The notes under the pieces were generated by a model. That model was not told the DNA's origin. It did no database searches and saw only the letters and a list, made by a program, of their open reading frames with translations. From Tetradesmus obliquus (Eukaryota; Chlorophyta; Chlorophyceae; Sphaeropleales; Scenedesmaceae): 64,000 nucleotides of DNA. Below are positions 1 through 61,569 of this stretch, piece by piece. Positions within the stretch are counted from its first letter, which is position 1. Every line of letters starts with the position of its first letter. The stretch spans positions 1,736,001 to 1,800,000 of the forward strand of contig CP126200.1 in the NCBI GenBank assembly GCA_030272155.1, read 5' to 3'. Both the position numbers and the translations under genes were made by a program.

Positions 1-2026
1 CTCCAGCCCTTGCAGATCTTTCTGCTCTGCCAGCTGCGCCAGCTGCACAGCACGCGCATGCGCTGCTGCTGCTGCAGCGCCGCTGCCTGCGCTGCCAGCC
101 GCCACTAGCGCTGCCGCTGCCTCGACCTCATACTGCAGCTGCTGCTGCTGCGCCGCCGCAGACGAAAGGTTCGCGCTGCCGTTGCTGCTTATATGGCCGT
201 GGAAGCTGCCACTACCTCCTGCAGCTGCTGCGCCAGCTGCTGTTGGAGACAGCAGCCCCAGGGCACTCACGCCTGTGCCGCTGGCCCTGTGGCTCTTGGG
301 GCTCATGTTGGCACAGCTGGTGCTGCTGGTGCTGCGGAAGATCTCGAAGGCGTCCGAGGTTGTCCTGCTGCTGCACTCGCTGCCGCCGGTGAGCCGCGGC
401 TGGATCTGCGTGACGCGCTTGCAGATGGTGTTGAGCATCTGCGGGGCAGCCACACAAGCAGAAAAGGTTTGGGAGGCCGGCAGGAGTGGCAGACAAATGT
501 CACAACAACTGGTTGGATCGGCAGCACAGCAGCAAGTCAGTGAGCTGCGGCTGGATATGTATGACGCGGTTGCAGATGTTGTTGAGCATCTGCAGGGCAT
601 GGGCACACAGAAAAGGACGCGAGCGTGAGCAGCACGCCTTCAAACATCTTTGCAGGAATACATTAGCAGTATGCGATATGGCAGAGTTCAAAAGCATGCA
701 GCCTGGTGCACAATTCCTTCTGTGTTTGCATCCCTGACAACCGTGCACACATTTGTGGGAATGCGTAAAAGCAGTGCATCCAGTACATAACATAGCAACT
801 CTGGCTGTATGCAACTGAACAAAGCGCAGCCCAATGCCGCACGCACCTGCAGCAGCGCATTGCATGCTGTTCGCTTGTTCACCGGGTTCTCGCTGCCCAG
901 GGCGAGGTTGAACACAGCCCGCACGGCAGCAAGCAGGCATTCCCCATGTGCGATGAAGTGCTCTGCTGTGGTGAAGGTGAGCAGAGCCCGCACCACTGCC
1001 AGCTGCAATGCTTCATTGTTGGTCTCGCCGCACTTTATGACCATCTTGATGACGTTGGCAACTGCAGAAAGTTGTGGTGGATAGTGCACAGCAAGTGAGC
1101 TCTACTGCAGTGGCTGGGATTAAAGCGTGGCACAGCAACGCAAAACTAAGTGCTGCTGTACCATTGCATTGCCCTTGCATGCTAGCGCCAGTGTCACCTA
1201 AGCACTCCATACAAACTCGCATTCACCTTCCAGAAAGACTTATCGCACGACATTTAATAGACATGCACAAACAGCTGTGCCCTTGTCATCAAGGCTGCCA
1301 GGCGCAGACAGCATGTCCACGGTGCCTGACGCTGTGCACTCACCCTTGCAGGAAAATCAAAGTCAAACATACACCCACCTGTGTCATCGTCGTCAAGGCT
1401 GCCGTGCGCAGACAGCATGTCCATAGTGCCTGACGCAGTCGACTCGCCATGCAGCCATGCATGAGCCACAAGCTTGTGCAGGCAGCCCAGGGCCAGCTCC
1501 ACCACTTTGACCATGTTGCTGCTGCAGGCCAGCTGCAGGGGGTACAGCACCTCCTTGAGGGTCTCCTCTGTGCAGCCATTCTGGTCCAGCGTGTTCAGGA
1601 AACCCTGCAGAACACAGATGAGATGACGTTTGAATACGTCAAAGTATGAATCTTTAAGATGGTCGCAAAAATCCAACAAAGTGCTGAAGCAGATGCTGCC
1701 ATGGTGCTGCAGAGATCCACCTTGCGCTGGTGCGGGTACCACGCCTTGGCGCACACTACAGCTGCAAGGCGCATGATGTCGAAAGCACCAAATGCGCACC
1801 TGCTCACTTGCTGCTCACACACTACAGAGCTGCGGCATTTCAAGCTGCTGCACGGCACTCAGCTCACCTGGCACGCCTCACGAATCTCTTTCACCTCCTT
1901 ACTGCGCCCCCATGCCTCCTTCTGTATGCTGGTGATGGTGCGCTTCACAAATATCTCAAACGCTTTGTCCCTGCAGGAGTGTGCAGAGGCAGCACTGCCC
2001 CCCTGGAACTCCGCCTCTTCTGCCAT
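1..2026 (-). CDS. BIG-type ARF guanine-exchange factor, N-terminal part
   Basis: Partial gene running off the left edge. Hand-built exons on the minus strand: 2026-1868, 1604-1379, 1061-847 and 438-1 (open to the edge), phases 0, 1, 0. The protein starts MAEEAEFQGG and continues with a helical segment containing EIFVKRTITSIQKEAWG. Exon 2 carries LKEVLYPLQLACSSN and VELALGCLHKLVAHAWL, and exon 3 carries HGECLLAAVRAVFNLALGS followed by NPVNKRTACNALLQ. These match the DCB region of large Sec7 ARF exchange factors (BIG/GBF class), which activate ARF GTPases at the trans-Golgi and endosomes. The Sec7 domain itself would lie outside the window. Exon 4 turns into a Ser/Ala/Gly-rich linker. Assignment rests on the DCB pattern only. 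Introns carry ghost copies of exon ends (separate entries). Confidence 0.82.
540..600 (-). repeat. Ghost copy of BIG exon 4 head with acceptor
   Basis: The minus strand reads CTGCAG followed by a diverged copy of the exon 4 head (MLNNICNRVIHIQPQL against MLNTICKRVTQIQPRL). It lies about 160 bp upstream, in transcription order, of the true exon, which begins at 438. The acceptor AG is retained. Confidence 0.75.
1288..1352 (-). repeat. Ghost copy of BIG exon 2 tail
   Basis: This repeats, with changes, the last part of exon 2 (the sense segment around MDMLSAHGSLDDD) just inside the following intron. The copy is direct and close, like the other exon-end duplications in the window. Confidence 0.7.
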
Positions 2027-3150
2027 GGCGCTGTGTGCACTGTCCTACAAGCTGCTGAGTTTCCAAACTGTGACAGCACTGTTGCTGCCGCTGCTTTTGC
2101 TGTAACGTTGAATTTTCTGCTGCTGCTCTCAGCCAGGCGAGCGCTGGCTGCTAGCTGGCAGCTGCATCACCACTGGCTCTGCAACACAGCAGCAGAAGCA
2201 TGCGCAGTGCGGATGTGTGTAACATTACAGGGCACTGTCATGCAGCCTGATATTTGACATTAAATGAAGAACACTGACAGTTAGGCTGCAGCTGATGCTT
2301 GATCAGCAAGAACATTGAAGCACAGCTGCTGAACACAGAATCAAGGGCAACTGGCACCAACTGCTGCAGTACTTCCCAAAGCACATACCAACCCCACAGA
2401 GCTGATAGACATGAAGTAAAGCATCTTATAATGCTAAAGTCGCTATTCATGTGCAGCAAACCAGCCTACCAGGTGATCACAGCAGCTAGAAGGAACTGGG
2501 CCTGCATGGCTGTCTTGAACCTGTGCGTGTTGTGCCGATCAGCGTTATAAAAGGTATAGGGACGTAAAATCAAAACGTGTAAAGTATGCTGTGCGCTCCT
2601 AAAGCTTCCGTGGTGCAGTGCACGTTGAAGGCTTTGCTCGCCAGGCAAGTACTCGCAACTCAACACGCACAACGAATATGTTTGAGCACGTGTAGTTCCG
2701 ACTGTACCGACCTATAATGCGCATGACACCCCAAACCACGGAGGACCTAGTTGTTATCTTCGTTTGCACTTGACCCATTGCCTGCATGTTTCCTCGTCGA
2801 AAGCCTTGCTGCAACGACGATTTGCACTTGGGTGAAGACGCGATCAGCAGCAACAGCACAGCAATGGGTACAGCACCACAGCTCTGTCGCCAAGTACTGT
2901 CCTGCCTGACCAGGCAGCCACAGTTGCAACTGCTGGCCCTGCAGCAGCTGCCTTTTCTGCAGCAGCAAACACTGGGAGAAGATCATTTCCCTCAGCAATC
3001 AACATCAGTTTGCAACAGTTCAAGCAGCACCCGCAGCTATGCTCGCTTGCCAGGTGCGGATGCCAGGCCAACTGACATGCACATGGCATGTCCTGCACAG
3101 CTGTCACCCATTGTCAGAACTTGACCGGTTGAATGAACAATTAAGCACAA
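2027..3150. other. Intergenic space between divergent genes
   Basis: About 1.1 kb between the BIG start and the TMEM186-like start. I see no coding segment that I can link to a family and no strong repeat. It presumably holds both promoters and 5' untranslated regions. Confidence 0.4.
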
Positions 3151-60100: not shown

Positions 60101-61569
60101 GCTGTAGCTCGCAAGGTCCAGCACTGTCTCCCAGCCCATGCTGTTCACCGTCAGCAGTGACTAGTGCTGTCAATGCTTGCTGAGTATACCACTATCTTCC
60201 GAATTGCGCTGGCTGCTCCAAATGCATGTGCTTCATGCTCACCTGAGAAGCTGTAGCTTGCCAGGTCCAGCACTGTCTCCCCGCCCATGCTGTTCACCAG
60301 CAGGCCGCAGGACTGCAGCACGGCAGCAAACTCAGCACTGACCTGCAGCAGCAGCAGCAGCAGCAGCAGCGGCAGCGAATCATCGGTGAGGTTGACCTCC
60401 AGCACGTGTGTATGCACCCGCACCATCTTGGGCTGACTGCGAGCCATGTTGGGCTGGCAGGCAGGTAATGCAATGCCATGCGCAACACACAGTGACCAGC
60501 TCTGCTGCTTGGCGTCACTGGGTGTCACCTGCTACTTCACACTGAACCACCACTAGGAAGTTCACCTGCATGAAGATCGCCTTGGGGTGCTGCTGCAGGA
60601 AGGCCTGCGCCATCAATGAGAAGTTCACGGGGTCACAAATGGGATCTCCGAGGGCCAGCGGCGACAGCACATTGAACACATCTGGCCCATTGCGCATCAT
60701 TGTGTATGCAATGTAGCCCACATCTGGTATTACGAAGTGCTGTAGGCCCTGCTGCAGTGTGGAGAGGCTGAGGATGCCCCTGCCGTGCTGCAGGATGTGG
60801 GGGTAGAGGGTGTCGTGCGGCGCTGGCGGCAGCTTGTGCAGCGGCAGCTGCTTGCAGGAAAGTGCGGCCTGGTTGCAGGAAAGTGTGGCCGGTTGCAGGA
60901 AAGGCGCGGCAGGTCAGCATGCAGGCAGGTGTAACAGGAGTGGCGCTAGCTTGCACAATAGAGTGGTTGACATCTGGCTGTGTCCTTCACGACTGCAGGA
61001 TTTGGTGGAGCTGCACTTGGGCAGTGTTCACCAATGTGTTTCATGTGGATGGACAATGTTTTTAATGTATAGCTCAGCAATAAAATGCAATGTTGAAGCG
61101 CTACCAGTTGCATGCATGTTTGATGCGTCACGCCACTGCAGTTTGTTTGGTGATCGCTGAGCAACATGCATGAGGGCCACAGCAACAACAGTAGTGCAGG
61201 TTGCGGCATGCTGATGGCGACAACACACAGCATAATGTACAGCACCGGTCCTTCACATTTCAAATTATGTGTGTAATGCAATCAAACACAATATATGAAC
61301 ACTTTATAATAGCAAAAAGGGCTCCTCTAGCAGAATGCACGCATTCATGTGACTGCTGTGCCACAGCACCTTGCTATGGTTGGGGTGGTTACCTGTGCTG
61401 CTGGCTTAGCCTGGTCCCGCTTGGGGGTGGCGTCACGGCAGTAAGCTTCGCCATTGAAATCATCGCTTTTCCTGCCGTTTGGCTGCTTGGTTGCTGCACC
61501 GTTCAGCTGCACCTCACAGTCTGCCTGGGGAAAGCCCAAGCAGCCCCCTGGGGTGAAGCACCGCAGCAT
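57119..61569 (-). CDS. DUF2156 (phosphatidylglycerol lysyltransferase C-terminal-like) protein
   Basis: Exons 61569-61393, 60847-60566, 60342-60243, 59639-59415, 58971-58749, 58508-58152 and 57752-57119 join in phase to 665 residues. The order of parts fits the double-GNAT-like DUF2156 fold: GYIAYTMMRNGPDVFNVLS plus LALGDPICDP, then FMQVSAEFAAVLQSCGLLVN, YSFSGYAKRGLRSAIASA, VGYYANVTRMVPDAHPGVLN and FLSLGLSPL. In bacteria this domain transfers aminoacyl groups to lipids; here there are no membrane helices, so substrate and role are open. Ala-, Ser- and Gln-rich insertions interrupt the fold, and the last 120 residues are low-complexity. The first exon is the weakest part: an upstream stop precedes its Met, but a 5' exon is possible. 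Confidence 0.8.
59085..59130 (-). repeat. Ghost copy of DUF2156-gene exon 5 head
   Basis: Sense strand: ACAG followed by a copy of NSWFINRL (true NFWFINRP), about 145 bp before the true exon in transcription order. Confidence 0.82.
60085..60155 (-). repeat. Ghost copy of DUF2156-gene exon 3 tail
   Basis: Repeats the segment encoding NSMGWETVLDLASYSFSG with donor, about 150 bp past the true donor at 60243. One Gly to Trp change. Confidence 0.85.

Follow-up and report, generated by a model that had tools for sequence, protein, structure and literature searches.

Local direct copies of exon ends inside introns of the green alga Tetradesmus obliquus

Why do the introns in a 64-kb stretch of the Tetradesmus obliquus genome (contig CP126200.1, positions 1,736,001-1,800,000; the whole stretch is called here the window) carry so many copies of the ends of adjoining exons? 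We use the term 'ghost' for a direct copy of an exon end plus splice site lying inside an intron. The initial annotation of the window, made from the sequence alone, ascribed ghosts to frequent tandem duplication of 100-200-bp units, noticed only where a unit spans an exon edge. We analysed the window and four 50-kb blocks from contigs 1-4 (C1-C4; 264 kb in total), and the results below establish the copies, their step, orientation and topology, and their excess at exon ends over simulated neutral duplication. Exon-end copying in T. obliquus is more frequent than chance duplication gives, which points to an unexplained local process favouring exon ends.

Results

Self-alignment of the window returned 83 direct pairs, 81 of them 2 kb apart or less, and three inverted pairs, none local and the nearest 7.5 kb apart. 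With microsatellites soft-masked, the window had 87 local direct pairs versus one inverted local pair, and the direct pairs covered 19.3% of its bases; the same coverage in C1, C2, C3 and C4 was 10.7, 0.6, 8.2 and 5.7%, respectively. All five blocks together gave 176 direct versus 8 inverted local pairs (searches for local pairs require copies of about 30 bp or longer), and a third-order Markov shuffle, one per block, gave no local direct pair. Offsets between copies peak at 100-160 bp, then at about 220-260 and 330-360 bp, with few at 160-200 bp; that is, copy spacing is quantised near 125 bp. The 100-160-bp peak stands out in the window, in C1 and in C3; it is weaker in C4, and C2 contributed only three runs. 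The ladders reported in the initial annotation are thus real, with a step near 125 bp.

We analysed exon edges using gene models from our own semi-Markov gene finder, trained on helicase seed exons, which predicted 21 genes with 353 exons and plausible proteins in the window plus 200 kb. For each edge, 32 exon bases were used to search for a copy of at least 80% identity within ±1.5 kb. Over the 264 kb, 83 of 611 edges (43 donors and 40 acceptors) have a local sense copy, compared with 1/611 in the inverted control, which rules out inverted copying as the source, and 4/3055 in the non-local control. The self-alignment, the edge test and these controls together bear out the claim that the copies are local, in sense orientation and next to their source exon. 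In the window, 47 of 146 predicted edges have a copy, with 58 copy relations on the expected side, in line with the 60-70 copies previously tallied by eye. The blocks gave 17/132 (C1), 1/135 (C2), 9/90 (C3) and 9/108 (C4), or 0.7-13%. The window is a hot spot for exon-edge copies, and its high density is unmatched in C1-C4. C2 (L007-L011; contig 2, 1.50-1.55 Mb) has the highest GC content of the five blocks (0.597).

The gene finder wrongly predicted some ghosts as exons, which inflates these counts. We therefore made a strict count by dropping the 33 edges that have any wrong-side copy (mostly ghosts called exons), after which 50 of 578 edges (8.7%) retain copies overall, 32 of 131 in the window.

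Edges were also placed with annotated T. obliquus proteins, the tblastn ends being snapped to the nearest AG or GT. The DDX18/HAS1 product is 99% identical, in the alignment, to a T. obliquus protein, and the edges of its gene were set with protein P0001; the TPR gene matches OEZ86_005316 (mostly 93-100% per exon), its edges being set with protein P0121. Among the 48 protein-placed edges 12 have ghosts (TPR, 8/27; DDX18/HAS1, 4/21), with 27 copies in total. All 27 lie on the tolerated side, donor copies downstream and acceptor copies upstream, with none on the wrong side, exactly as the initial annotation had described, and the real splice site is outermost relative to the copies at every protein-placed ghost edge. 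In two genes, tblastn of the annotated proteins placed the ghosts between the same consecutive exons, so no intron was created. In COX15, one of seven tested edges has a ghost, and the gene-finder edge test indicated two further ghost edges, at 34577 and 34731 (reverse strand, block C1), which an identity filter had removed from the set of seven. By eye, the annotated T. obliquus proteins of TPR, DDX18/HAS1 and COX15 contain a single copy of each exon end.

Is the excess at exon ends real? In the intron interior, ghosts included, copies were found in 180 of 3352 cases (5.4%; 73/2720 outside the window); with ghost zones left out the value is 62/3072 (2.0%), and within ghost zones it is 118/280. 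Exon interior gave 15/564, and intron adjoining donors and acceptors 9/247 and 10/250, respectively. With strict edge counts, the edge/intron ratio is 1.6 for all intron interior (1.5 without the window) and 4.3 with ghost zones left out. For comparison, we simulated random neutral tandem duplications forward in identical gene models and scored them with identical code in five settings; assuming random sequence, uniform ages and our own gene models, the ratios were 0.38-0.55 and 0.44-0.65, respectively (a cruder first simulation gave 0.5-0.65). The observed ratios exceed the simulated ones, and thus the visibility of exon edges alone is insufficient to explain the pattern. Of the earlier tandem-duplication model, the local, direct, tandem-like copying in ladders with a step of about 125 bp stands; edge visibility as the sole reason why edges stand out is not supported. 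Purely intronic copies, which had been considered unrecognisable, can in fact be aligned (we found 10 representative intron-only pairs), but they are rarer than neutral duplication predicts. At the level of arrays, 49 of the 57 in genes reach an exon edge, versus 62% ± 5% for random placement. A meta-profile places the copying close to the edge: inside the exon, 10-20 bp from a donor or acceptor edge, 13-15% of 32-mers are copied, and the value is 2-3% at +20 to +60 of donors and 0.5-1.2% at -70 to -90 in exons.

The dimensions of the copies were taken from 23 pairs of two copies separated by a spacer (offset at most 180 bp, spacer at least 40 bp), some of which are intronic or lie outside the predicted genes. 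Copies measured 56 ± 16 bp and spacers 71 ± 13 bp, at an offset of 127 ± 17 bp. Two-copy arrays with an offset of up to 300 bp make up 45 of the 81 arrays, many having an unrelated spacer. Spacers mostly lack residual flank similarity, with a median z of 0.2 after the copy and 0.6 before it, and z above 2 in 10/54 and 8/54, respectively. In a genome search that skips simple and very common words, all 10 spacers tested (703 letters; 19 were eligible, 1331 letters) matched their own genomic place only, which rules out for these 10 a mobile or introner-like family and recent copying from elsewhere; a blastn search of the 264 kb with every two-copy spacer of 20 bp or more gave a few weak or repeat-rich matches.

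Among young pairs (those sharing 30 or more of the 32 exon bases), the intron flank is no more similar than the 95th percentile of unrelated introns in 20 of 43. Simple tandem duplication predicts that the intron half is copied too, and these unrelated flanks thus speak against its simple form. Over all 103 relations, which are not independent within one array, the intron flank is alignable in 35, at the null level in 37 and between the two in 31. Some arrays are ordinary full-unit ladders (29361-30106, for example). In many cases similarity stops near the splice motif, as if the exon end alone had been copied or kept.

Two candidate sources were set aside. CTG/CAG runs are not the driver, since a run of at least 4 units occurs in 12 of 83 real-ghost spans versus 275 of 840 random genic stretches. 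A spliced-mRNA template is unlikely, as the next exon's head does not come after the ghost in the two cases looked at by eye (8656 and 48757 only).

Donor ghosts have kept GT in 44 of 53 cases, where decay predicts 0.84, which supports ghosts being decaying copies; acceptor ghosts have kept AG in 48 of 50, where decay predicts 0.81. The stock of competing splice sites noted earlier is thus present in the sequence, and we regard ghost splice sites as putative competing sites and claim no function for them. Differences between real ends and ghosts at codon positions 1, 2 and 3 are 30/657, 41/650 and 121/647 (53 pairs, leaving out pairs with both copies predicted as exons). The third-position excess is partly expected, because the real exon itself gathers silent changes; base composition was ruled out as its cause. 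Relations with unrelated flanks are near neutral (72/796 at positions 1-2, 53/388 at position 3) and those with alignable flanks are not (34/757 and 50/363). Exon parts have 6 gaps per 1954 sites versus 127 per 4327 in intron parts. The gene finder accepted some ghosts as in-frame exons, and a few copies could be complete in-frame exons.

Discussion

The reading we prefer, tentatively and with not quite an even chance of being right, is that exon-intron junctions are copied into the intron by recurrent direct duplication, which acts locally and in steps of about 125 bp, exon ends being preferred sources or survivors. A duplication of this kind would repeatedly put a junction copy into the intron, where it would be tolerated because the outermost site (the first donor or the last acceptor) remains the used one. 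The copies would become non-coding ghosts that mostly decay, and some may grow into ladders at multiples of the step. The copying could be due to break repair or template switching in which often just the exon end with its splice motif is copied. Both template switching and break repair with fill-in yield local direct copies; to our knowledge, neither has been reported to favour exon ends.

A bolder version, which we consider somewhat unlikely, is that exon ends are hot spots at which some 50-60 bp around the splice site are copied a fixed distance of about 125 bp into the intron; splicing or exon-bound chromatin perhaps places DNA breaks at exon ends. If that were so, introns near exons would be partly built from fossil exon ends. 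More generally, preferential copying of exon ends would mean either a link of DNA damage and repair to exon structure, or preservation of exon-end copies by selection or conversion, and either option bears on intron growth, on the origin of alternative splice sites and on how repeated peptides may enter gene predictions in these algae. In this respect, the annotated protein P0122 of Scenedesmus sp. NREL 46B-D3 repeats VATDFLADIVDSM at a place that corresponds to a T. obliquus exon end, as though the gene model had taken in a ghost tail.

A number of results weigh against preferential copying or survival of exon ends followed by decay. Most edges come from a gene finder trained on the same sequence. 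The strict count is lower than the raw one and falls to 18 of 447 edges (4.0%) without the window, and C2 is nearly free of edge copies. An earlier edge/intron ratio of 6.8 (83/611 versus 62/3072) was overstated, because it included ghosts predicted as exons and omitted intron near ghosts; strict counts give 1.6-4.3. The array-level excess is modest, and it takes no account of exon copies staying visible for longer. The meta-profile, too, is less than clean, with 5-8% of 32-mers copied at exon -110 to -150 of donors and 3-5% at intron -20 to -60 of acceptors. The intron half is carried by 35 of the 103 relations. Retention of AG in acceptor ghosts is above the decay expectation, and the codon-position bias and scarcity of exon gaps fit pure decay poorly.

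The main rival is that ghosts descend from old full-length tandem duplications, the intron halves of which decayed, while gene conversion, confined to what homology was left, refreshed the exon halves from the conserved exon. It would account for the unrelated flanks of young pairs, for the offset range common to partial and full-length two-copy pairs, and for the ladder at 4115, where two ghosts have identical exon parts and intron parts that are 22-32% different. In several ladders, however, ghosts share bases absent from the real exon, which recent refreshing would erase, and refreshing leaves the third-position excess unexplained; we consider this explanation unlikely. Random neutral tandem duplication of 100-200 bp, visible at edges through exon conservation, is the model of the initial annotation. 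Part of the pairs are indeed full-unit, with alignable intron flanks, and the excess of arrays at edges is mild, given that 62% of genic arrays would touch an edge by chance and that exon copies remain visible for longer. The model is nevertheless quite unlikely in view of the gap between observed and simulated edge/intron ratios and of the many young pairs with unrelated intron flanks.

It is also conceivable that ghosts are functional, as alternative or poison exon ends or as decoy splice sites under selection. The third-position excess, strong in pairs with alignable flanks, the few gaps in exon parts, the retention of AG and the prediction of some ghosts as in-frame exons agree with this. 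Yet the retention of GT does not exceed the decay expectation, change is nearly neutral in pairs with unrelated flanks, and the copies are absent from the annotated proteins of three genes, and we hold a function to be distinctly improbable. An assembly artefact, for which we found no supporting point, is extremely improbable: the majority of copies are not identical to their sources, their flanks are distinct, and copies occur in all five sampled blocks, in C2 at a single edge.

We compared ghosts with known systems. Introners are one element in many genes, and the 10 spacers tested were all unique. Tandem or mutually exclusive exons, where a complete exon is duplicated and used together with both of its splice sites, do not match either, as the copies are mostly partial exons with one edge and the proteins of three genes are single-copy. 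Minisatellites similarly form ladders of 110-140-bp units with decaying copies; unlike them, 45 of 81 arrays here are two-copy, many with an unrelated spacer, and are tied to exon ends. Intron gain by tandem genomic duplication of exon sequence, as described in PMC2891723 (see also PMC4974935), has in common with ghosts the local direct duplication of exon sequence with splice motifs; here, however, there is no new intron, and the copies lie inside an intron bounded by unchanged exons. The proto-splice site AGGT was seen by eye in some ghosts.

In Daphnia, the direct repeats of neointrons are attributed to staggered double-strand breaks, with 4-12-bp exon-end repeats in the new introns (PMC4202315). 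There, as here, the terminal bases of the exon are repeated directly at the far intron end, and introns hold internal direct repeats; the T. obliquus copies differ in being about 30-130 bp, in lying at edges of conserved exons and in their fixed step and ladders. Fill-in by CST/Pol alpha-primase at staggered breaks is known from experiments to give small tandem duplications (excerpt of PMC8355091). These too arise at the DNA level, as local direct duplications of tens of bp; the same excerpt mentions no exon-end preference. Direct repeats around an unduplicated stretch, as expected of staggered breaks, are present in 23 two-copy pairs, some of them away from exon edges. We found no published description of frequent exon-end copies in introns among titles and the beginnings of abstracts, which is weak evidence of novelty, as most subscription papers lay outside the search; two papers on Sphaeropleales genomes (PMC12571836 and PMC7590803) contain, as far as their main texts go, no words beginning with intron, exon or tandem. 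Two 17-contig T. obliquus assemblies are listed in PMC12571836, so the rate and footprint of duplication are directly measurable.

Ghost sites in the window

The ghost sites below are on the forward (+) strand unless marked (-), with offsets relative to the real edge. In the TPR gene, the real exon at 28391..28553 (edge from P0121) is preceded by ghost heads with acceptors at ~27745 and ~28180 (offsets -646 and -211). At 29361..30106, six ghost tails come after the tail and donor with the real edge at 29427, lying from +112 to +679 in a 112-bp ladder. At 32795..32966, a ghost head (32798-32842) precedes the real head, which starts at 32922 (97.9% over 48 bp, offset 124, flanks unrelated), and the same arrangement is seen at 33710..33891 (ghost head 33713-33766, real head from 33834; 96.7% over 61 bp, offset 121). 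The real tail ending at 33083 has ghost tails at +111, +226 and +479 (33009..33624; alignment and protein-placed edge), and that ending at 34424 has one at +256 (34363..34685; edge test). Four ghost heads lie before the real edge at 36395 (35945..36434), as found by alignment and tblastn; three of them pass the 32-mer test.

In DDX18/HAS1, the real tail to 46625 (46578..46872; edge from P0001) is followed by two ghost tails, at +114 and +234. The real edge at 47418 (47034..47444) comes after three ghost acceptors with exon head, and that at 50852 (50389..50949) after ghost heads at ~50411, ~50537 and ~50674, both by the edge test. At 48645..48800, the real tail with its donor (48683) has a ghost at +112 (97.7% over 44 bp); the 68-bp spacer has no flank similarity, and its genome match is at its own place only. 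A helicase intron also contains an ATT-rich run at 49697-49880 (61 units, 86% matches), and similar stretches occur on many contigs.

A gene with a weak Pfam match (AAA-like) has a 137-bp ghost head with acceptor at 7551..7899 before the real head from 7767, with 17 differences over 133 coding sites, 15 of them at third positions. The real tail to 8596 has a ghost tail at +111 (8545..8711; 94.6% over 56 bp). At 8873..9120 the acceptor and head, with the real edge at 9036, are near-completely duplicated (92.6% over 121 bp), and at 10087..10285 self-alignment pairs a ghost head with the real head (edge 10244). At 11857..12745, the donor at 11893 has a ghost at +143, and two acceptor ghosts lie before 12705.

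Several sites have edges placed by the gene finder only. At 4115..4717, four ghost tails follow the tail with its donor at 4158: those at 4228 and 4342, and partial ones at 4470 and 4571; in two of the ghosts the exon part shows 0/44 differences versus 22/69 and 15/69 in the intron part, and in the other two the aligned exon stretch differs at 9/41 and 8/44. At 5231..5785 there are a duplicated head (5231/5358) and a donor-type ladder with its edge at 5545 and ghosts at ~5627 and ~5739. Exon-tail copies form a ladder at 17524..18253, and a minus-strand gene has donor ghosts from two exons at 58025..60298 (-). Apart from these gene-finder sites, a BIG/Sec7-like gene (DCB domain) has a real exon head and a ghost 151 bp away at 389..616 (-), and the 3' end of the GNAT reading frame contains an array of 3.8 copies of 136 bp at 14740..15293 (-).

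Outside predicted genes, about nine copies of a 113-128-bp unit lie at 54041-55408; they may belong to an unpredicted gene. In L002-L006 joined, which is not part of the window, four 120-bp units at 44782-45221 encode the identical peptide LLARPGAVPRLLQHVASN, and the first differs from the others by silent changes alone (8, 6 and 4). The window also contains a reverse-transcriptase reading frame (RVT_1; 23404-25056), an inverted 672-bp copy of the 3' part of which lies at 51868-52539 (93.8% identity), and a (GT)122 run at 22352-22595.

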